DNA of 64,000 nucleotides from Blepharisma japonicum (taxonomy: Eukaryota; Ciliophora; Heterotrichea; Heterotrichida; Blepharismidae). The first letter of the stretch is position 1. Every line of letters begins with the position of its first letter. The translations under genes and the position numbers were made by a program. The stretch lies in the NCBI GenBank assembly GCA_949751835.1, contig CATKHK010000077.1, positions 1 through 64,000 of the forward strand, in the 5' to 3' direction. The notes below the pieces were generated by a model. It searched no databases and was not told where the DNA came from. It was given only the letters and a program-made list of their open reading frames with translations. Shown here one piece after another: positions 7,626 to 28,354 of the stretch.

Positions 7626-8690
7626 ATGAGCACCATCAAATGTGATTGGTCAAAATGTGACCGAGAAGTTGAGTTTTCATGCAACTGCGCTTCCATTGAT
7701 AAGTATTTTTGCAGAAAACACTGTGGGAGACATTGCATATCTAGTAAAGGACCTCATGATCCCATCAAATTATTTTATGAGCCTGTTGAAGGCACAAAAG
7801 AAGCGATCCTTAGCTTTCTTGCAGAAGAAAAATCAAAAATTGAGCAAATAAAAGCAAATCTCATCGCTTCTTTTTCTCAAACTATTTCTAGTTATGAAAA
7901 TATATTTGAACAAGTTTTAAAAGAAATCGACTCTGATGCTACAAAAATTGGCAGTTATGTAGAAAAAATCTGTATAACACAAAACCTATCTAGATTGGAG
8001 AAAGATCAAGCTTTAAATTTGTTAGTTTTGCAATCAAATGAAGCTGTTAATAAAGCTAGAGTAATGTTTACAGCAAGTGGAAATAAAAGCATTGAATTAT
8101 TTTGTGATATAGGAAGACAAATTGATATAATTATCAAGAGCTTCTATGAAGAAAAGTCCAAATTTATTTCAGATGAAATGCATTTTGAACTGAAGAACAA
8201 TTTTGAAGAGAGCATTAACTTTGATAATAGAGGAGAAAATTTACAGCTAGCACTAGACAAATATAAAAAAGCTATCAGAATTGATCCAAATAATGCTAAT
8301 GCATACAATGAAATAGGAATTATCTTGAAAAATGAAAAGAGATATGAAGAAGCAGTAAAACATTACAATGATGCAATTAGAATCAATCCAAATGATGCAA
8401 AATATTATGCAAATAAAGGAAATGCTTTATCTAAGTTAGGGAGAAGAGAAGAAGCTATGGAATGCTATAAAGAAGCTCTCAGAATTGATCCAAATTATGC
8501 ACCTGCATACAATGACATAGGAATTATCTTTGAAAATGAAAAGAGATATGAAGAAGCAGTAAAACATTACAATGATGCAATTAGAATCAATCCAAATGAA
8601 CCGCTTTATTATAAAAATAAAGGAAATGCTCTTAAAGAGTTAGGCAGAAGAGAAGAAGCTATGGAATGCTATAAAGAAGCTAAAAATTAA
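7626..8690 (+). CDS. zinc-motif / coiled-coil / TPR-repeat protein
   Basis: A 354-residue protein. Residues ~5-38 hold the same Cys/His motif as the Kelch members (CX4C, CXC, CX2HCX2H). A helical middle (~55-195) follows, then about four and a half TPR units of 34 residues from ~208 to the end (signature YxEAVKHYNDAIRINPN alternating with EAMECYKEALRIDPN). TPR domains are peptide-binding scaffolds; the partner is unknown. The start Met is fixed by alignment with the neighbour at 8916, where the preceding bases are conserved but not in frame. It is the intact member of a tandem TPR pair. The middle region (EPVEGTKEAILSFL) is clearly homologous to the Kelch-bearing proteins in this window. Confidence 0.85.
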   Translation: MSTIKCDWSKCDREVEFSCNCASIDKYFCRKHCGRHCISSKGPHDPIKLFYEPVEGTKEAILSFLAEEKSKIEQIKANLIASFSQTISSYENIFEQVLKEIDSDATKIGSYVEKICITQNLSRLEKDQALNLLVLQSNEAVNKARVMFTASGNKSIELFCDIGRQIDIIIKSFYEEKSKFISDEMHFELKNNFEESINFDNRGENLQLALDKYKKAIRIDPNNANAYNEIGIILKNEKRYEEAVKHYNDAIRINPNDAKYYANKGNALSKLGRREEAMECYKEALRIDPNYAPAYNDIGIIFENEKRYEEAVKHYNDAIRINPNEPLYYKNKGNALKELGRREEAMECYKEAKN

Positions 8691-8915: not shown

Positions 8916-10402
8916 ATGAGCATCATAAAATGCCATCGGTCAAAATGCGAAAGAGAAGTTGAGTATTCATGCAATTGCACTTCCCCTGACACTTATTTTT
9001 GCAAAAAACACTGTGGAAGTCATTGCATATCTAGTGAAGGACCTCATAAACCCATCTCATTATTTTATGAGCCTGTTGAAGGCACAAAAGAAGCGATCCT
9101 TAGCTTTCTTGAAGAAGAAAAATCAAAAATCGAGCAAATAAAAACAAATATAATCGCTTCTTTTTATCAAACTATTTATAGTTATGAAAATATACTTAAA
9201 CAAGTTTTAAAAAACATCGACTCTGATTCTACAAAAATTAGCAGTTATGCAGAAAAAATCTGGATAACACAAAATCTATCAAGATTAGAGATAGATTCAG
9301 CTTTAAATTTGTTAGCTTTGAAATCAAATGATGCTGTTGATAAAGTTAGAGTAATTTTTACAGCAAGATCAACAAAGAGCATTGAGCTATTTTGTGATAT
9401 AGGAACACAAATTGATATAATTATCAAGAGCTTCTATGAAGAAAAATCCAAATTTGTTTCAGATGAAATTCAATTTGAATTAAAAAAGAATCCTGAAGAG
9501 GGCCTGAACTTTGAGAGTGAGGTGGAAAAAATACACCCAGCATTAAAAAAGTATAGAGAAGCGATCCGAATTGATCCAAATAATGCTGATGCATACAATG
9601 GCATAGGAAATATCTTTTTAGATGAAAAGAGATATGAAGAAGCAGTAAAACATTACAACGATGCAATTAGAATCAATCCAAATAATGCAAAATATTATTT
9701 TATAAAAGGAAATGCTCTATATGAGTTACGCAGAAGAGAAGAAGCTATGGAATGCTATAAAGAAGCTCTCAGAATTGATCCAAATTATTCTGATGCGTAC
9801 AATGGCATAGGATATATCTTCTATAATAAATTTTGATATGAAGCAGCAGTAAAACATTATAACAATGCAATTAGAATCAATCCAAATAATGCAATTTATT
9901 ATTATAATAAAGGAAATGCTCTTATAGGAGAGTTAGGAGATATAAAGAAGCTATGGAATGCTATAAAGAAGCTCTCAGAATTGATCCTAATTATGCTGAT
10001 GCATACAATAAAATAGGAAAGATCTTCTTTTATGAAAAGAGATATGAAGAAGCAGTAAAGCATTGCAACGATGCAATTAGAATCAATCCAAATAATGCAA
10101 ATTATTACTATACTAAAGGAAATGCTCTAGATGAGTTAGGCAGAAGAGAAGAAGCTATGGAATGCTATAAAGAAGCTATCAGAATTGATCCAAATGATGT
10201 TAATGCATGCATTATCATAGGAAATATCTTGAAAAATGAAAAGAGATATGAAGAAGCAGTAAAACATTACAACGATGCAATTAGAATCAATCCACATCAA
10301 CCTAATTATTATAGATATAAAGGAAATGCTCTAGAAGAGCTAGGCAGAAGAGAAGAAGCTATGGAATGCTTTAACAGAGCTAAAAATTTAAAAAATCTTT
10401 AA
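8916..10402 (+). pseudogene. zinc-motif / TPR-repeat protein, frameshifted copy
   Basis: Tandem partner of 7626-8690 with the same Cys/His motif and middle region and a longer array (~eight TPR units). A TGA at 9834-9836 stands where a Trp codon is tolerated and reading continues as WYEAAVKHYN. About 100 nt later (~9930-9945), one base is missing relative to the other repeats, just after GNAL, so the frame runs into a TAG near 10015. The rest (9953-10402) is open in the next frame and still a good TPR array ending in TAA. No 15-16 nt intron repairs this. It is either a young pseudogene or a consensus error in a repeat. If translated as read, it yields a protein about two-thirds of full length. 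Confidence 0.7.
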
Positions 10403-14881: not shown

Positions 14882-16670
14882 TTAAAGCATGCCAGTCAAT
14901 AAATTTTTATTCAGATCGAACTTGTAGTATGCAATAACAAAATTATTGTCAAGGCACGCAATGTTTATTGCTTCTTTATTATATGAGCAATAAACTTGAT
15001 AAGAAACATTACTGATTATTGAGACTCCAATTTTTCTTCAAATAGCATCATTTGAAACTTCACTTTCATAGATTGATCCACTGTCGCATTCAATCAAAAA
15101 TAGTCTCTCTGCATTTATAAGGATCTTTCTTTTATTAGCTGCAAACTGGAAAGGAATTATTTCGAAAGTGTTACCCTCAATTGAATATCGTAAAAGATCT
15201 CTATTACAATATCCAGAAATCAAAATTTTGCCGTTCATAATTAAACTATAGCAACAATAATCAGCTTGTGGCATAGGAGCTAGTTTTATTCATCGATTTG
15301 CATCCAAATCAAATCTTTCTGATAGAGTTAAAGCACTACTATAATATCCTCCAAAGCAATAAACATTTCTATTGAAATAGATAGCTGATGAGGCACTACA
15401 AGGAGTTCCAGATGGGAGTTTTCAGACTTCATAATTTCCATCTATTTTTAATGAAATGCCGGAATCTGGATAATTTCCGAAACAAAACAATTCATTATTA
15501 GGAAGTTGAGTTATGCATGGGTGATAATCAAGAAGCTCCGGGGTCTCCAAAACTTTGATCATTCGTCTTCCACTTTCTGTGTCATAAATAAACAAATTAG
15601 TTTTGTTACCATAGCCCTTATTAATAGTATAAAGAGCTGTTTTTTGATGATAATTATTAGTGTAATCTTGATAAGCTTGCTGAAGCGGAGGATCATAAAT
15701 TCGAAAGTCGCTGTCATATATAGAGCAAGTATTTCTAAACTTTTGCTCTAATTCAGAATCGTTTGATCTATTTAAAATTTCAGAATTTTTGTCTCTTAAT
15801 TCTTGATGGATCATATTTATGCTCTCAGTATTTTTATTCTTTTTTTGAGATTTTTTAACTTTTTCTAATTTGCGACTGAAGTTTTCAGTGATCCTGCTAA
15901 TTTGAGAACTAAGCACGCTTATCTTATTTTCTAAGTTTTGTTTTATTGTTTCTTTTCAATCTTCTAACTCTGCCTTGATGTTTTATTCTCATTTATCAAT
16001 TTAGAAACAGTGTCGTTGACGTTTGCCAGCTCATTATTCGCTAAGTTGATAGCCTTACTATGCTCTTCATTTGTCGAATTAATAATTTTATTATGTGCTT
16101 CAAGAGTGCTTTCTATATTTAAGAGCCTTTGTCAAGATAAGCTTCAAATTTGTCTTTAATGAAGCATTCAATTATTTTCCCAATTTTTTCATTAAATCCG
16201 TAAAACACCTTTGAGCTATTATATCAGTCAGGATTAGCTGGAATCGATTTTACTTTCTCAACAACTTCATCAGGGTGCAAACTCAATAGTCCCAAAATAG
16301 ACTTTGATAATTTTTTAGTTTGAGAAATCTTTGTAAAGCAATTACTAATTTGAGCCGAATAAGAATCTAAATTCTTTAAGAGCTTTTTAATGTCACACTC
16401 TGTATCAAAAAGTCGCTGACTATAGGAAGCTGCGATATTTCTCTTCAACTCGCCATCCCCCGACTTTTCTTCTGTAAGAAAACCAACGATTGCTTCTTTC
16501 GTCCCTTTGCACGATTCTACAAAAATAGACTCAAAGTCGTGAGTTCTGCTAGGCAACTTCATATGCTTTCCAAAGTGAACTTCACATGATAAAGTTTGAG
16601 GAGAAGTGCATTTGCATGCATATTCAACCTCAAACCCACACCCTTGCTCAAAACATTGCTTTGACTCCAT
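14882..16670 (-). pseudogene. zinc-motif / Kelch-repeat protein, two frameshifts
   Basis: Tandem copy of 11900-13681. The Cys/His motif and N-terminal coil (16224-16670) and the C-terminal Kelch part (14882-15916) are readable with UGA as Trp. Between them, two one-base deletions are visible against the paralogue: near 16130 (LDKRLLNIE is encoded with AAAA in the paralogue but AAA here) and near 15978 (after LINENK). The region between is otherwise conserved, so introns are not the explanation. Four residues (EQDP-equivalent) are also lost in frame near 16300. Both lesions are in or beside A-runs, so consensus errors are possible, but as written the gene is broken. Confidence 0.7.
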
Positions 16671-17169
16671 TAATTATTAGACTAAATGTATTAAAGATAA
16701 ACTATATTATTAAAGCTTCTCTGTTAAAATACTTTAAAAATAGGAATAAACTTAGCAAAGGCCACAACGCTGCAGAATAAAGCAAGATTTTGCAAATTTA
16801 TATTTGCACAAGCTACATTATAATTACATGCTTTAAAAATTTATGAATATACAAATTTTCAGGTTCTCTTTAGCTATTTTTGATTATTAAAATTTTTGAT
16901 TATTGTGCCATTTCCTGAAAAATTTTTAAGTTTTATTGCTCAATTTGAATGAATTGTGAAAATTATAGACTATTTCAAAAAATTGACTGCATTTTATTCA
17001 AAATAGGTTTGGCTTAAAGCTTAGCAAATCAATTCTTATATTTAGCTTTATAATTTCTTAAAAGAAATTAATTTGAATTTTATTATTATAGTAATTTACA
17101 CTCCTTTTAAAACTTGACGCTCCTTCAATTATTCATTTTCTTTATTTTGAATTGGTTTCACAAAAGATA

Positions 17170-18970
17170 TTTGAGATTCTGGAGGATTAGTCTTTTTTTT
17201 CAATGAGTTTAGCCTTATAATTGATTTTTTCAGCCGCCTTCCCAAATCTCAAAGCAAAATCAAATAAAAGAGACTGATCATTTCCTCTTGGTCTGAAAAG
17301 CAAACTGGGATACTTCTTTCATTGGGCATATACTCCCTTCCCTGGAGTGGAACGCAGTGCGCGCCACTCCAGGGAAGGGAGTATATAAACCAATTCCACA
17401 CAAATTTATCCACCCCAAAAAGACTAGAACAACTCAATAAAACGCTCCATTATTTCCAATTAAAGGTTCATTCTTGATAAAAATGAAAGCCAAGCCACTC
17501 CAATAATACTTATAAATTGCCACCAACTAAATCAAGGATAGTTATAAGGATATTTTTTGAATATGAAAATATTATATAGAACCAGGATAAGGACAAACAG
17601 AAACCCATGAGCAGTTGCTTGTGCTCTTTTAACTGTTTTATTCATAACAATTAGAGATATTTGTACACCTCTTTTTAATATCAAAAATGCTGGTGAAGTT
17701 TTAACATGTAGTTGGGACTGAAGCTCTTGCCAAAGAGGCCTGCAGAATACAGCTAAATGTTCATAAGTAAGCAATGCAAGAATAGATAGAACTACATAAA
17801 TTGTGTGAATGCCTTTTCAGCAAAATTGATGGCAATCCTTTACCAAAAAACTCTTAGAAAAGCTGTTTCCAATTGATTGATCACAAACAAAAATATCTAA
17901 GAGAATTGACACGAAAGGAATAAAGCGTAAATTCCCCAAAACTGGCATAAATCAGTCTCCAACTTGTCCTAAAAATCTAAATAAAAGAGTGAACTCAATT
18001 TTTCATCAAGCCTGAATAATATAATAAAACACAGAACTATCCAGAAAAAACATAAAGCTAGAATAATATCAAAGAAAATCCAGTAAAGATTATTTTCAAA
18101 AGCAATTTACACTACTCAAATTCAATGAAAGTAAATCTCCAATTTCAACTAGAAAAGTATTTATTAGCCTATAATCAGGCTCCATAGAAGCAAATTGGAA
18201 GAACTCCACTACAATTGTAGCCCTGACCATAAAGTCCTAGATAGAAATTTCCTCTTTTACAGTAAAATTTTCTATTTTCACATTCCATCATTTTTTTCAT
18301 ATAAAAAATGTTATAACTACAGTAATAGTTCCAAGTGGAAAACAGATAAACAATACAACAATTCTCCCATCTGAAAAAGTTCTGATTTCTTTATCAGAAA
18401 AAGGGCAATTTCCATCTATAAGTCTCAAGTCAGAGGGCTTTGTAGCTGAATTATCTCCATATATAGCAGGCTGACTATAGCAAATAATGAGTTCTATAGG
18501 GGCTAAAAGTCCCTACGCGATATATTCGGATTGTTCCGTTCACAATATGATTGCTGCTAATGTCCATTGTTGTCATTTCTCTGTCATTTGATCCTTTTAA
18601 CATTCTTATTTTCCCTAAGCATCCAGTGATAGCTATACTTCTGATGGTATTATTTAATTTTGAAGCATCTGTATAGTCCTGTCCTCGATTAACCATCCAA
18701 TCTAATGCTAAAACAATGAATCAAGCTGAGTCAAAAAAATCGCATACAAAAGTTCTTGGGATAGCATTATAAGTTTTTTGAAGGTTCTGGACAAATTTCC
18801 CAACCCAAACTGAGCCTTAGAAAACCATCATTGGAACACCTATTTCAAGGCGTTTATATAATAAGCTGTCATTAAAACCGATCCAAATTCATAATAAAAT
18901 ACATAAAAATACTATCTAATTTAATACGATAAAGTTTAAGCATAATATAGCAAAATGTTGCCATCCGAAA
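17170..18970 (-). pseudogene. decayed multi-pass receptor with periplasmic-binding-like domain
   Basis: Reading toward lower coordinates: 18900-18480 resembles the end of a type I periplasmic-binding (ANF receptor-like) domain (EIGVPMMVF, FVCDFFDSAWFIVLALDW, ITGCLGKIRMLKGSNDRE). Then 18200-17480 has several hydrophobic segments (for example TIYVVLSILALLTYE, HGFLFVLILVLYN) and a conserved-looking FCRPLWQELQSQLHV segment. Then 17330-17170 has a cytosolic tail (KKYPSLLFRPRGNDQ, FALRFGKAAEKINYKAK). TAA, TAG and at least one frame change interrupt it, and no start is seen. I recall large receptors of this architecture in heterotrichs, but that family call is from memory. A hairpin element sits inside the last membrane segment. 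Confidence 0.55.
17328..17386. mobile_element. perfect 23-bp inverted repeat (MITE- or IES-like hairpin) in ATAT duplication
   Basis: Two perfectly complementary 23-bp arms (17328-17350 and 17364-17386) flank a 13-base GC-rich loop. Each outer end is ATAT followed by ACTCCCTTCCC, giving TA-bounded ends like Tc1/mariner-type terminal repeats. The composition is strikingly GC-rich for its surroundings. On the minus strand, the receptor-like frame reads up to GIGLY before it and resumes as KKYPSLLF after it. Removing 55 nt and one ATAT copy gives GIGLYAQWKKYPSLLF in one frame. It codes for nothing itself. It could be a miniature transposon or a germline-type eliminated sequence. Confidence 0.7.
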
Positions 18971-21759: not shown

Positions 21760-21877
21760 CTAATACTCCATTTTAACTCGGCAAAGTCACTTTACGAGAG
21801 AAAACCGAATTTTTTAAAATTTTTTTTAAAATAGTTTCCCTTATTTATTTGAGGCATTCTCTCAAGAAAAGCTCACT

Positions 21878-24800
21878 ATGAAAAGTCTTATAAGCTTTAT
21901 TGCTCTTATTGGACTGGCTTCTTGTGTTTCAATAGGATCCAAGGACAGTACGCTTGATCCTGGCAGAATTTTATGGCCAAAAGAAACTTGGGTGAGTTCA
22001 CCAATTGAATTGGGAAGGTCTAATTCAGGTCTGACAGCTACTATTACTTTTAACTTCAGACCATCAACAGCTCTGACCAATGGCTACGTTCAAATCATTC
22101 TCCCAAGTGGATTATCTGGTACTCTTACAGCAACAAAGACAGTTTCAGCAAATACTGATACCAGTGCTTCTTTCTCCCTTGTTTTACCTTCAGGAGCTGC
22201 TGTATATGGCCCATTCGGTATTGTTACCAGAACATCTTCCTCAGGTCAAATTATTGATGCAAACTACGTTTTCGGTTGCATTGCTACTACGGCCTCTGTA
22301 ACAAGTTCATCTACCCTTACAGTAACAACTGTGTCAGGAGCTTCAAGTCCAGTTATTTCAACGACTGATGGCATTTATTTCGCATTTTCTCTTTCTCAAA
22401 GTTTCTGGAGACATGATATAATTGAAATCATCCCAGATTCAGACTGGTCTTTCGCTTCAAGCTCAGTCACTTGCTCCTCTTCAGATGTCACTAGTGTGAC
22501 TAACCAGCTCTACGGGTATGATGGTACTCATAACCTTCCTTGTGCATTAGCAACCTCAAGCTCTGATACAACTGGTCCTCAGTACTCAAGCACAGGCTCA
22601 AAGAGTGTTTATATATACGGAGTCGATAAAGATGTTATTATTGCAAGCTCCCTTTCCATCAAGCTAAAAGTCTCTACTTTTACACTTCCTGGTTTCGTGA
22701 AGTCTTCATCAAGTAATACATGGATTGTCAAGATTTGGAGGTTTGGCACTAATAATTTGCTTGCCAAATACTCTGGAAGTGGCCCAGTTACCACAGCAGT
22801 AGGTGCAATAACAGTTAGTTCATGGAAATCTAAAAGCGGTATCGACGAGAGCAGTGTTCCAGCTTCCACAACTCTTTTCTCCACTGTCACATTCAGCAAT
22901 GCTCATGCAATTCCTAATGGTGGAACTGTCGTCATTACTTTTACCAGTGTTGATATTTCAAAAGATTGGTGGGCAGACGTAGATGGTACTGCGAACTCAG
23001 GTGCTAAATGCTTTATATCATCCTCAATTACTGCCACTTGTGCAAACACTGACTCAACCAAGGTCACAATTTCTTTAACTGCTGCTCTTGCAGCATCTTC
23101 CTCAGTCTCTGTGACTTTGCTCACTGCTTTATCATCAGGCGCAAAGATTTCCTCAATTGTTTCTTACTACACTGGAACAACCCAAATTGATGCCCTTGCA
23201 AGTTCATACTCATGGCCTCTCAGCTCTACTAATAAAGCACTTGGCCACTTCTCATATCATGCATATGCAGATGCGTCAAATAATTACCCAGATATTGGCT
23301 CAGGCTCTACAACTTGGACAACTGGATATTTGCTTGGAGCTGACAAAGCTAATGATCTCTTCTGGGAAATCTTGCCTAATGCAAATGTTGCCTGGGCTAT
23401 AGGGACAAGCATTTCAGTCAATCTTCCAATATCTTCCTCCCTTTCATACACTTCTTCTTATATAGCTGGAGATGCAACTGTCTATGATAAAGTTGATGCT
23501 TTTTCAAGTGCTGCAGCTCTTTCAAGTACAACCACTGGAAGAAGCTATTCACAAAGTGGAAACGTTATCACTGTTTCATTTACAACTGCCCCAACTGCCT
23601 CTAATTACCTCGTTTTTGCATACTCAGGCAACTCAGCATTACCTTATGTTCGCTCAAACTTGGCCACTTTTTACGAATGTTGGGCCAAAGCAACCACCAG
23701 CACAACTGTCGAAGTTGGAAGCTCTGTCTTCTCTGTGTTGGATACTGACTACGCAAATTCAGGTATTATCACTGCACCATTGTGTCTTAGTACCGTTGGA
23801 GCAATTCCACTCATGACCACTTTTGTTGCCAAGCTGATGGCTATTGATTTCACGTCATCAACCAATGTTTTCACCCTTGAAGTAACTATTGCTGGAGGCG
23901 CTGACTTAGGAACTGGCTTAGCTGATAAAAGTGATCTTCCTTGCACAGGAACAGCTGCCGGAGTATCTTGCATTTTGACTAAAACAAACAGTGGAGCGGA
24001 CAGCCTCATTACAATTAAAGGACTAGGGTCTTTGGCAAAGGATGATTCAGTCTCAATCTATATTGCAAAAGGTGTTATAGCCGCCTCAACATCCTTAACA
24101 CCTACCACTGCAGTTTACTACCAAACATCAGCTGATTCAAACATTAAAAACTACCTGTTTACAAGCATAAAGACATCTGCTTACACCACAGCAGGAGCAG
24201 TAGCATTGACAGCTGCAACCTCAACAACTACCTGGGACATCTCTGGCACTCAAACCTTGGCAATTACTGGTGCAGATGTGAACGCTGATACAGCCACAGG
24301 CGCTTATATTGGAATTGGTTTGCCTGCTGGCTTCACTTTATCTGGATCTGCAATTACAGTTGCCACTAAATCTCCTACAAAGAGCTATCAAGTAACTATG
24401 GCTGACAAATATTCAATTGGAGGGTTTATTATGGGTATTGATGATGGGAATTTTCGTCTTGCATCAGGCGGATCTGCTATGTCAATCACCAATATTGTAG
24501 CACCAGGATATGCTGGAGCTACTGATGGAAGCAACAGCATTCACTTCAACGTATTCGTTGCAACCACTGTTGGAGCTGCTTGCACTGCATCTGATATATC
24601 CACGATTACTGGCAATACAATTAGCGTTGGAACAATAACCGATGTTACATGCAGCTCATCAGCCTCTTCATTAAGAGGACCAGATACTGTTGACTCAACA
24701 ATGACAATAACAGTATCAGTTCCTCACGCTGTGCCTAAGAGCGGTGTAGTAACCCTCACTATGGACAACAATTGGTCATATAGCTATGCATCTTGCACAG

Positions 24801-27800
24801 TCTCAGGAATGACAGGATCTTGCACCCCTGGCACCTCTACAACAATCACTGCATCAGCAGATTTTTCAGCTGGAACCATCACTGTCACATTCTCACACGT
24901 CCTCCCACCTACTTCAGGCTCAACTGCATCCTGTGTTAGTGCAGTAACAACCCAAGATGCCAATAACAACTACATTGATTCCGGATCATCATTAACCCAA
25001 ACTATTAATATGGCAGCTGCTGGAGATCCAGGAACCTCTACAACCAGCCCAACTGCATATCCAAACTTTGCAGGAGCAGCTAGTGTTGACATATATCTCT
25101 CATTTACTCTTTCTAAACCACTACCAGCCGGCAGCATTCTTACTATTTCACCTGGTGGTGTTGGATCATGGCTTAAATCTGGAGATATCAAGGACTATTG
25201 TTGGTCAAATGTTGTATACTCAGATTGCACTATTTCAAGCTCAACTGTCCAAGTCACTTTAGTAAATAGCTTATCAGCTCTATCACCAGTTCAGCTTTAT
25301 TTGGACAGCGCTATTACTCTCCCAAGTGATTCTGGAGCAACTGCAACTGGCTTCCAAATTACAGCTAAATGGAACGATGTGACCATTATTTCAGACAGTA
25401 CCCCAGGAGCTGTTCTTACAGTCAATACAGCCCCAGCAGGAGCAGTGACTCTCACTTCTGTCAAAGCTAGCAACGTTGATAACGCTGGCGAGGCAGCCAA
25501 CTATCTCTTCAGCTTCTCAAGCAACCAAGCTGTTGCAGCTGGAGACTACTTTATTATTCAATTCCCAAGAGACTTCGATGCCTACCTTGGAGACGCAGAT
25601 AACACTTATCCAGACTGCTTCCCTAATGATTGGTATCTCACTTGCAGTTCTACCGCTCTTGGAAGTGTTGCATGTGCTGCTGACCATTGGTACCTTAAAG
25701 TTTCTGGAGTGTCTAAGACAGCAACTACATCAGCTAGCTTAGATCTTACAGTCAATGGAATCAGAAATCCAAAATCTGGAACCACAGGATACTTTAACAT
25801 TTGGCATTATGGCTCAACTGGAACTGTTAAGGCCTTCGTCAACTCAGCTGTTGGTGCAACAACCTCAGACCCAGTCGCAAACTCTGTAACACTCAAGCCT
25901 GTAACCGTTAGTGGGCAATCATTATCTGGCTCATCCACGTATTCTTTCGATTTCTATAGTGCAGGCACCTTCAACAGTGAGTATTCCTTTGAAATTCGCT
26001 TCCCACCACAATTCAACCTTAAACTCGCCAACTCAGGAACCACAGCTTGCACTACCAAATACTACGATGACTCAGGAGCTGCTAACACTGATTCAACTGT
26101 TGCTAATGATTGGAGCTCTAGCACTGCTTCTTGCAGTGCAGATGTTGTCACTGGAAGAGTGACTCTTGCAATTCCTTCAACTGTCACCAAGACATTTGCA
26201 TCCACTGACAGAATAAGAATCAATTTAACTGCTATTAATAATGCTCAATGGGGACTTAGCCGAACTGATTCTATGTGGGACATCAAGGATACCTCAGCCT
26301 TCGGATCTTTCTCTGAGTGGACAAGCAGATTTAGTGTAGCCGCAATCCACACTTCTGATACCACAATCAGCGGTAAAAGCTATGACATCCTCAATGCAGC
26401 TTATCTTGGTTTTAACCCAGTTGCTACTGCAGTCAATGTCAACTCATACAATCCAGAAAACGGAAATAACAAGATTCAGCTTACTCCAGGAACCCAAAGC
26501 CAAGATATCCAAATCACTGTTGATTCTTCATGGCCAATGAAGTCTCAGTCATTGAAATTGACTCCATCTTCAAATTCGAATTATCCTGATAGTGGAAACC
26601 TCGAGTACACTTCAGTCCACTACGGCTTCATTGCTTATCAAATGACCAAGACAATCACCTTCAGAGTTTCAGCTAAAACAGGCACTTCACAAGGACTGTA
26701 CTATATCAATTGGACTCCTTTAGAAAATAGACAGCCAGGAGTTTCAAGCGACATTTACTGTGCCCCATTAAGTGTTTTGGTTGAGGTATGCACACCTTCA
26801 ACTACAATTACTCCTACAGTTGCAACGATCCCAACTCTTTACAAGTCACACAAGAGCATTCCAATTGCAGTGACCCTTTCCAGATCCCCTGCAACAGATC
26901 TGACTATTACCCCATCAACCACTTCATCCGGAATCTCATTTAATCCAACTTCTCTCAAGTTCACCAAGGATTCTGATGTGCTCTACTTTGAAATCACTGT
27001 CTCGTCAACCTACGATTCCACTCAAGCATCTCCAGTTATTGCATTCTCCATTTCAGGAACTGATTCAGCCGCTTATGGAGCCATTACTTCAAGAACAATC
27101 ACTGTTTCATCTACTGACTCAACCGCCACACAGCCAACCATCACCATTCAGCAAGGAACTATTACTGGAAACTCAATCACCTTGACTGTCACTTCACCAC
27201 AAAATGGAGTTCTTTATTGGGGATTTTCCTGCAAAGGATCAAGCATTCCTACTTACTCAGAACTCGTTTCAATAACTGCAGATCTCGTTTCTCCAGCCAA
27301 CCAAACTTATTCATATAGAGCAATGAAAGATATGGACTACGCAGAAACTGAAACAAGCATTGATACTACTAAAGGTGACACTGATATCAACTCATTCTTC
27401 AGAAGAATGCATGCTAAGCATTGCGCTAATTATTACACTAATGCCCAAGTAATCTATACTGGCACCTCAGCTCAAGTAGTGCTCGATAACCTGATGGGAG
27501 GAACTGACTATGTTTTCACTGCTTATGTTGACAACCGACTTATTAATAGCACTTCAAGTTATACTGCAGTCACAAGCTCATTCAGCACCTCTGCACTCCC
27601 AAGTGTTACAACTACGACAGTTTCCTTCTCAGGATCTGTAGCCCAAAGCAGCAGTGACAACATTAGAAATGTTTTGGCTAAAAACATGGGAGTTAACCCA
27701 GCATGGCTCACTTTAGCATCATACACCCCTCCTACATCAACAAGGTATCTTGCTGACTCAACAGGCACTTCCTCTTTCACTTACAATGTGCTTTACGATA

Positions 27801-28354
27801 GAGCCTTCTCTGCAACCTACCCATCAAGTGAAATTGCTACTAACCTTGATGACACCCAAGCAACATCTGACTTCTCCAGCTTATACAGCTACACTACTTC
27901 AACCTATACCACAGGAACTGCAACAACTGGAACAACTCCTTCATGGACTGTAAATCCAGCCTCATCCACAGTTGGAGAAACAACTGCTACTTTCACTGCA
28001 ACCTCATCTCAAGCAGGCACGATTTATGTTTCTTGCAGCGATGAAACATCGACTTATAACACTTATGCATGGCAAGTCATTGATGGACTCAATGCAAACT
28101 CCAACCCTGGCTATGCTGCATACGCAAATAGCACAGCTAGCACAAGTGCCAGTTTAACTGTTTCTGGTTTATCTCAAGGAACTCAATATCAATGCTATTT
28201 CACTGCTTGCAACAACTATCCACTCTGGCCTTCTTGCATTGATTACTCAACCAGTAGCTCATTGGTCTCTGTAACAATCAAGACTTTAACTTCAAGCGAC
28301 AGCAGTGCAGCAATACTAAGCTTATTGGCAGCTTTCTTCTTAATCTTTAACTAA
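21878..28354 (+). CDS. giant secreted Ser/Thr-rich surface protein, probable GPI anchor
   Basis: A single 2158-codon open frame. Residues 1-17 form a signal peptide (Lys then LISFIALIGLASC). The C-terminus is a Ser-rich linker followed by AAILSLLAAFFLIFN, which resembles a GPI-attachment signal. Between them lie repeated beta-sandwich-like modules of roughly 180-220 residues, rich in Ser, Thr, Val and Gly, each with a hydrophobic strand, a Trp, paired Cys and a Thr/Ser-rich strand (for example PHAVPKSGVVTLTMDNNW and its relatives). Likely role: a cell-surface coat or adhesion protein. All ~33 Trp codons are TGG, although neighbouring genes often use TGA. The DNA is also visibly less AT-rich than its surroundings, suggesting high expression. 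No introns. Confidence 0.85.
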   Translation: MKSLISFIALIGLASCVSIGSKDSTLDPGRILWPKETWVSSPIELGRSNSGLTATITFNFRPSTALTNGYVQIILPSGLSGTLTATKTVSANTDTSASFSLVLPSGAAVYGPFGIVTRTSSSGQIIDANYVFGCIATTASVTSSSTLTVTTVSGASSPVISTTDGIYFAFSLSQSFWRHDIIEIIPDSDWSFASSSVTCSSSDVTSVTNQLYGYDGTHNLPCALATSSSDTTGPQYSSTGSKSVYIYGVDKDVIIASSLSIKLKVSTFTLPGFVKSSSSNTWIVKIWRFGTNNLLAKYSGSGPVTTAVGAITVSSWKSKSGIDESSVPASTTLFSTVTFSNAHAIPNGGTVVITFTSVDISKDWWADVDGTANSGAKCFISSSITATCANTDSTKVTISLTAALAASSSVSVTLLTALSSGAKISSIVSYYTGTTQIDALASSYSWPLSSTNKALGHFSYHAYADASNNYPDIGSGSTTWTTGYLLGADKANDLFWEILPNANVAWAIGTSISVNLPISSSLSYTSSYIAGDATVYDKVDAFSSAAALSSTTTGRSYSQSGNVITVSFTTAPTASNYLVFAYSGNSALPYVRSNLATFYECWAKATTSTTVEVGSSVFSVLDTDYANSGIITAPLCLSTVGAIPLMTTFVAKLMAIDFTSSTNVFTLEVTIAGGADLGTGLADKSDLPCTGTAAGVSCILTKTNSGADSLITIKGLGSLAKDDSVSIYIAKGVIAASTSLTPTTAVYYQTSADSNIKNYLFTSIKTSAYTTAGAVALTAATSTTTWDISGTQTLAITGADVNADTATGAYIGIGLPAGFTLSGSAITVATKSPTKSYQVTMADKYSIGGFIMGIDDGNFRLASGGSAMSITNIVAPGYAGATDGSNSIHFNVFVATTVGAACTASDISTITGNTISVGTITDVTCSSSASSLRGPDTVDSTMTITVSVPHAVPKSGVVTLTMDNNWSYSYASCTVSGMTGSCTPGTSTTITASADFSAGTITVTFSHVLPPTSGSTASCVSAVTTQDANNNYIDSGSSLTQTINMAAAGDPGTSTTSPTAYPNFAGAASVDIYLSFTLSKPLPAGSILTISPGGVGSWLKSGDIKDYCWSNVVYSDCTISSSTVQVTLVNSLSALSPVQLYLDSAITLPSDSGATATGFQITAKWNDVTIISDSTPGAVLTVNTAPAGAVTLTSVKASNVDNAGEAANYLFSFSSNQAVAAGDYFIIQFPRDFDAYLGDADNTYPDCFPNDWYLTCSSTALGSVACAADHWYLKVSGVSKTATTSASLDLTVNGIRNPKSGTTGYFNIWHYGSTGTVKAFVNSAVGATTSDPVANSVTLKPVTVSGQSLSGSSTYSFDFYSAGTFNSEYSFEIRFPPQFNLKLANSGTTACTTKYYDDSGAANTDSTVANDWSSSTASCSADVVTGRVTLAIPSTVTKTFASTDRIRINLTAINNAQWGLSRTDSMWDIKDTSAFGSFSEWTSRFSVAAIHTSDTTISGKSYDILNAAYLGFNPVATAVNVNSYNPENGNNKIQLTPGTQSQDIQITVDSSWPMKSQSLKLTPSSNSNYPDSGNLEYTSVHYGFIAYQMTKTITFRVSAKTGTSQGLYYINWTPLENRQPGVSSDIYCAPLSVLVEVCTPSTTITPTVATIPTLYKSHKSIPIAVTLSRSPATDLTITPSTTSSGISFNPTSLKFTKDSDVLYFEITVSSTYDSTQASPVIAFSISGTDSAAYGAITSRTITVSSTDSTATQPTITIQQGTITGNSITLTVTSPQNGVLYWGFSCKGSSIPTYSELVSITADLVSPANQTYSYRAMKDMDYAETETSIDTTKGDTDINSFFRRMHAKHCANYYTNAQVIYTGTSAQVVLDNLMGGTDYVFTAYVDNRLINSTSSYTAVTSSFSTSALPSVTTTTVSFSGSVAQSSSDNIRNVLAKNMGVNPAWLTLASYTPPTSTRYLADSTGTSSFTYNVLYDRAFSATYPSSEIATNLDDTQATSDFSSLYSYTTSTYTTGTATTGTTPSWTVNPASSTVGETTATFTATSSQAGTIYVSCSDETSTYNTYAWQVIDGLNANSNPGYAAYANSTASTSASLTVSGLSQGTQYQCYFTACNNYPLWPSCIDYSTSSSLVSVTIKTLTSSDSSAAILSLLAAFFLIFN

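Follow-up and report, generated by a model that had tools for sequence, protein, structure and literature searches.

A probable MITE-like element of 53 bp, nearly all palindrome, at a duplicated TA in a receptor-family pseudogene of Blepharisma japonicum

Stowaway-type MITEs of plants are mobilised by mariner enzymes, show a TA duplication and inverted repeats, and have no coding capacity; in typical MITEs it is the ends that form the conserved part. Both palindromic and MITE-derived internal eliminated sequences (IESs) have been published for the ciliate Blepharisma stoltei, where IES predictions shorter than 50 bp with a low retention score were removed and the first length peak is reported at 65 bp (PMC9942856). 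One model of the origin of eliminated DNA, set out in the same account, makes the proliferation of small transposons depend on the ability of the host excisase to remove them, such that excisase-removable MITEs spread as IESs and unremovable ones are selected against. That account further describes IES excision as a continuum, with partial retention hidden by somatic assemblies (PMC9942856).

Here we describe a locus in B. japonicum that invites comparison with these systems. The window, i.e. the whole stretch of DNA analysed, comprises the first 64 kb of contig 77 (C77) in a 45.2-Mb assembly of 224 contigs. It contains a 53-bp sequence, almost entirely palindromic and inserted at a duplicated TA, which is probably a very small non-autonomous MITE-like DNA transposon. 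The hairpin is probably a mobile element that entered an already broken receptor gene and has few relatives elsewhere in the genome.

The palindrome in the window and its host gene

A sequence-only reading of this DNA had picked out a hairpin with two perfectly complementary 23-bp arms around a 13-nt loop, and this hairpin is real. The DNA fold of positions 17320-17394 reaches -32.3 kcal/mol, where shuffled sequences average -8.4 (z -12.5, equalled by 0 of 200 shuffles), and the longest perfect arm in one order-1 Markov control did not exceed 11 bp (175 kb of genome). The features at the locus, in window coordinates, are as follows:

17071..18882, minus strand: host pseudogene of the receptor family (ANF_receptor), truncated at its 5' end when compared with C49; from the C49 comparison, with the family name taken from Pfam on the C49 copy
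17328..17350, no strand: left 23-bp arm, taking in the TA duplication and one flanking base; perfect complement of 17364-17386
17329..17330, no strand: TA target duplication, left copy; the 55 nt extra relative to C49 are the 53 bp plus TA, with ATAT excluded via C19
17331..17383, no strand: 53-bp palindromic element TACTCCC...GGGAGTA, its edges set by element-free relatives (C49 for the window locus; for C19, which carries an identical copy, C100 and C2)
17342..17372, no strand: conserved centre CTGGAGTGG-N13-CCACTCCAG, exact at five loci, the sixth (C5) having a variant centre
17351..17363, no strand: 13-nt loop, with a 3-bp inner stem in the fold prediction
17364..17386, no strand: right 23-bp arm, by complementarity to 17328-17350
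17384..17385, no strand: TA target duplication, right copy; from the C49, C100 and C2 comparisons, as for the left copy

The C49 copy of the host is a receptor-family gene open over 781 translated codons (ANF_receptor, Pfam E 1.4e-21). The C77 copy is 95.2% identical to it over 1,694 aligned bases and differs by six 1-nt frameshifts, an in-frame loss of 12 nt, two premature stops and a 55-nt insertion (another 61-nt indel, where the alignment ends, was counted as an end effect); the similarity of C77 to C49 runs out at 18882, before the 5' end of the gene. Across the insertion site C49 reads GGACATATAAGCC, and C77 is 55 nt longer there. The sequence-only reading had proposed that, once 55 nt are taken out, GIGLY runs on into AQWKKYPSLLF in a single minus-strand frame, and had named a failure of homologues to align across the joined site as a reason to abandon the idea. 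C49 does align across it, lacks exactly these 55 nt, and reads GIGLYVQWKKYPSLLF in an open frame. The remaining frameshifts and stops bear out the same reading's mention of other lesions in the host, and because of them removal of the element mends the local frame only, not the gene.

More widely, C77:1-11654 and 16642-18882 match C49:1646-18665 in rearranged order, with the main pieces at 87-94% identity, while C77:11655-16641 is mostly without a match in the compared C49 sequence. These two parts of the window are a rearranged segmental duplicate of the start of C49, with tandem duplication inside. Compared with C49, the window also has 93 bp inserted at 2853-2945, edged by TAT on either side and by eye not palindromic; this is possibly a longer TA-bound element.

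Copies, empty sites and anatomy of the family

A 201-base query spanning the element, run against the DNA of the own genome in a search whose repeat counts are lower bounds, recovered the element itself, an identical 57-nt stretch on C19 and weaker copies on C21 and C5, together with two flanking pieces of C49 that lack the element. The pattern TGGAGTG-N5..35-CACTCCA occurs at six loci on six contigs (C5, C19, C21, C77, C102 and C129), its reversed control at none. A search with the 18-base centre and 13-nt loop, allowing up to 2 mismatches, returned five loci, every one of them mismatch-free. Searching with a 22-nt arm at up to 3 mismatches yielded the hairpin copies and one 23-nt remnant (C102:123662-123684), and no long autonomous relative with matching arms in the assembly. 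The remnant, TATACTCC-AGGGAAG-GGAGTATA, is probably a copy of the element whose centre was deleted between ACTCC repeats. The absence of any other copies, which the sequence-only reading had counted as fatal to its proposal, is thus contradicted by the genome search. The C77 and C19 copies are identical over 57 nt in unrelated flanks (a 657-bp C19 query meets C77 at the element only), and on account of these flanks we rejected a single insertion inherited by duplication.

Comparison with element-free relatives defines the target. C19 reads GGTA-53 bp-TACC, whereas its relatives on C100 (95% identity) and C2 (80-81%) read GGTACC. The duplicated ATAT suggested by the sequence-only reading fits C77 alone and not C19 with its empty sites, and gives way to a duplicated TA flanking an element proper of 53 bp; a TATA target with a 49-bp element was likewise rejected, since the C19 flanks and the GGTACC of the empty relatives allow TA only. 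C129 has AATTTATA-53 bp-TAC where C129:68840 (91%) and C217 (92%) read AATTTATAC, these identities being those of the right flank. On the left the two relatives are like C129 over 17 nt (16 and 17 identical) and unrelated beyond, which makes this empty site weaker. As the relatives cover the whole right flank of the C129 element (L017:1488-1540) and only 17 nt of its left one, a rearrangement boundary adjoins it. Thus three of the six loci (C77, C19 and C129) have 53 bp plus one duplicated TA each; at C77 and C19 the comparison extends over long flanks to either side. Duplication of a TA target is a feature that the family shares with the Tc1/mariner superfamily. C21 reads TA-53 bp-TA from its own sequence alone; it lies in about 730 bp that, by search coordinates, are absent from two tandem relatives, and so offers no empty site. 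At C102 there is no clean TA pair, and the two relatives compared (70-74% alike) are shorter by about 80 nt, not 55. The C5 element is 52 bp long with an imperfect duplication (CA/TA), and its sole other DNA relative (C24) stops short of spanning the site.

The arms match at 20/20 positions in C77 and C19, 15/20 in C21, 14/20 in C102, 16/20 in C129 and 17/19 in C5. Relative to C77, the inner nine bases of each arm show 0/18 mismatches in C21, C102 and C129, and the outer nine 6/18, 10/18 and 12/18, respectively, a contrast that is biased because C102 and C129 were found via the centre itself. On a constrained centre, the less biased observation is that a tolerance of 2 mismatches in 18 brought in no further locus. 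Ungapped complementarity of the outer nine bases was not significant (p 0.35 in C21, 1.0 in C102 and 0.14 in C129). C129 is unusual in that it keeps the centre and has 53 bp between its TAs with an almost wholly different outer arm sequence; its outer arms pair well only if single-base bulges are allowed. Fold z scores are -7.1 for C129, -9.9 for C5, -4.7 for C102 and -3.8 for C21 (equalled by 1 of 200 shuffles). The four strongest 64-nt energy windows in 225 kb are those of C19, C77, C5 and C129, while the folds of C21 (-13.9) and C102 (-13.8) are weaker than the top window of a single simulated control (-14.6). A scan of the same 225 kb for TA-bound hairpins gave 11 rows, six of them from the family, against 0, 2, 4, 3 and 3 in five simulated controls; a stricter scan gave 7 rows, again with six from the family, and none in one control. 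Taken together, the family is short, non-coding, dispersed and bounded by inverted repeats, as MITEs are by definition, with a low copy number. The exact centre pattern had no match in viral_contigs, a set from which near records were possibly left out, and a viral origin was rejected.

Two other palindromes deserve mention. About 1.1 kb from the 23-nt remnant, C102 carries an unrelated TA-flanked imperfect palindrome of 117 bp, palindromic end to end (L033:391-511, z -9.95), which suggests that there are further palindromic TA-bound elements in this genome. A TA-flanked 57-bp stretch on C8 (L046:3968-4028), with 13/15 inverted end bases and z -4.0, is marginal.

At none of the six loci did we recognise an intact gene spanning the element. 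It is overlapped by open frames of 78 to 219 codons at C19, C21, C102 and C5, of which the longest C19 frame was checked against Pfam. The C19 host is a copy that resembles an aminotransferase (Aminotran_4, E 1.2e-5, short of the curated cut-off) and has a separate frameshift relative to C100. The C102 element lies in a tandem family with broken frames, whose sole hint of a hydrolase identity is a below-cut-off match in a neighbouring ORF (Hydrolase_4). A decayed PiggyBac-domain stretch lies about 170 bp from the C5 element, and the C129 element is about 115 bp upstream of an ANF_receptor ORF.

Genome context and competing explanations

Blepharisma reads TGA as tryptophan. When TGA is allowed, the open frames of at least 150 codons in the window rise from 10,026 to 16,630 codons in all, the figures for one shuffle being 0 and 164. 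Three full-length matches to the PiggyBac domain, one on C6 and the others on C86, have TGA inside and no TAA or TAG. This assembly, then, reads TGA as sense. PiggyBac-domain stretches that are split or carry TAA/TAG stops also occur (C5:276928-277562, C214:4909-5954, C9:271572-272170 and C112:107992-108915). Exact triple CCCTAACA repeats were found 77 times in forward and 91 times in reverse orientation, with 0 in the reversed control; among the matches listed, those on C5 or with a small coordinate lie within a few hundred bases of a contig end. As CCCTAACA is the telomere repeat reported for Blepharisma (PMC9942806), the assembly looks somatic, which disfavours the suggestion of the sequence-only reading that the window is germline sequence. 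In the window itself, positions 21830-28354 hold a 2,174-codon open frame, Ser/Thr-rich by eye, in an island of 42-44% GC (the window has about 32%), and two tandem arrays with 102/204-bp periods (8262-8682 and 9552-10382) lie in open frames that neighbour each other.

Against this background the element could instead be an IES or IES-like MITE, normally cut at its TA ends in macronuclear development, whose excision here fails or is partial; we regard this as possible, though on balance unlikely. Its TA-bound, palindromic form has the geometry of precise removal, and the full-length PiggyBac-domain matches interrupted by TGA alone speak on the same side. As palindromic IESs are already published for Blepharisma, elimination would be plausible, and the element may be a cousin of DNA cut from the working nucleus of ciliates. 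Nevertheless, the assembly that contains it carries telomere repeats at its contig ends and looks somatic, so the window copy is not wholly eliminated; partial excision at these loci might still take place, given the published continuum of excision and the retention that somatic assemblies hide. Moreover, the empty sites are those of paralogues, for which insertion is the simplest explanation, with the empty state of C19 common to C100 and C2, and the C77 host would still be broken after excision. Of the two options put forward by the sequence-only reading, the miniature element with TA target sites is upheld by copies elsewhere and by TA empty sites, two of them firm and the third on a short left flank, and the germline-limited eliminated sequence is a plausible alternative. 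The length of the element bears on the same issue: the published 50-bp filter and the 65-bp first peak place its 55 nt at or below the edge of excisable size, which is suggestive only.

The polarity of the empty sites could also be reversed, with the filled state ancestral and a precise excision, evolutionary or developmental, having freed the paralogues of the element. Precise excision at TA is indeed the mode of ciliate IESs, but separate precise losses would be needed at C49, C100, C2, C129:68840 and C217, and the identical 57 nt at two unrelated places would be left unexplained; we consider this improbable. Selection for the fold itself, as in a structured RNA or a regulatory DNA hairpin, would account for folds kept with a different outer sequence, as the z of C129 illustrates alongside the even lower one of C5, and across the copies 87.2% of cells pair, a level reached by 1 of 500 shuffles, with a covariation score reached by 3 of 500. 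Yet double changes affect 4 of 22 pairs in 5 distinct rows, a value as high in 112 of 500 shuffles and exceeded by slid versions, which reach 6, and the copies lie in pseudogenes or outside recognised genes with TA duplications. With this mixed covariation and no match to Rfam 15 in the window at the gathering score, a structured RNA was rejected, and a selected hairpin of any kind appears very unlikely. An artefact of assembly or of library fold-back is hardly credible: template switching can give perfect palindromes, but the 57 nt common to two unrelated contigs, the diverged copies elsewhere and the TA duplications are at odds with it.

Proposed mobility and comparison with known systems

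Based on these observations we favour the MITE-like transposon, against which count the six copies, a small number, and the failure to find an autonomous relative with matching ends. The TA duplication together with the inverted repeats, as in known families, points to cut-and-paste movement by a TA-specific DDE transposase of the Tc1/mariner type acting in trans. Such a transposase would probably be encoded in the unseen germline genome, and the inverted pair of CTGGAGTGG boxes are its candidate binding sites; the absence from the assembly of a source element matching the arms fits a germline-limited source. Copies in pseudogenes or non-coding DNA would then stay in the somatic assembly, being removed incompletely or not at all in macronuclear development. 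Size may explain why they are retained: with 55 nt they lie one helical turn short of the 65-bp first IES length peak of B. stoltei.

With six rare copies, and none of them in a recognised working gene, the family fits the selected-against branch of the published model of excisase-dependent spread. Tiny TA-bound palindromes of this kind, rare, present in a somatic assembly and not seen in a working gene, would constitute a natural set for learning what the excisase needs, be it length, ends or hairpin; if the 65-bp first peak is a real size floor, the 55-nt units sit just below it. A more specific version, to which we give a low probability, is that the family is recognised by its middle and shape, namely the fixed 31-bp central hairpin, the 53-bp length and the TA sites, with outer arms that are replaced and still self-complementary, and that at one helical turn below the size limit of the excisase it escapes elimination and is confined to pseudogenes and non-coding DNA. 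If this were true, a centre-recognised family would represent the natural 'MITE that is not an IES' branch of the published IES model.

Unlike typical MITEs, the 53-bp family varies at its ends and is conserved in its centre. Its terminal CTCCC presumably resembles the ends of Stowaway elements, from which it differs in its smaller size and its conserved centre; no linked mariner transposase was seen. The BogoMITE of B. stoltei, derived from Pogo/Tigger, is likewise non-autonomous with inverted repeats, and the Bogo terminal repeat likewise has CTCCC; however, at about 389 bp, with a TAA/TTA duplication and about 8,000 copies by the published account (PMC9942856), it stands apart from a 53-bp family with TA duplications at six loci, which falls outside BogoMITE as defined there. 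The palindromic or TIR-bearing IESs of B. stoltei termed 'MITIES' (Seah et al. 2023, PMC9942856; rnd-1_family-87 and -160) are closer. Set against their published description, the 53-bp family has the TA-containing terminal direct repeats that characterise Blepharisma IESs and MITIES, and shares with them the palindromic form, the short length and the AT-rich heterotrich genome; MITIES are described as germline-limited, their lengths peaking first at 65 bp, whereas the 53-bp family, 55 nt with its duplication, is found in an apparently somatic assembly. No description of this family was found in the literature searched, a scope that left the published supplements on palindromic IESs outside. 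As palindromic IESs and MITEs are both already published for Blepharisma, the 53-bp sequences add one small new family to a kind already known.
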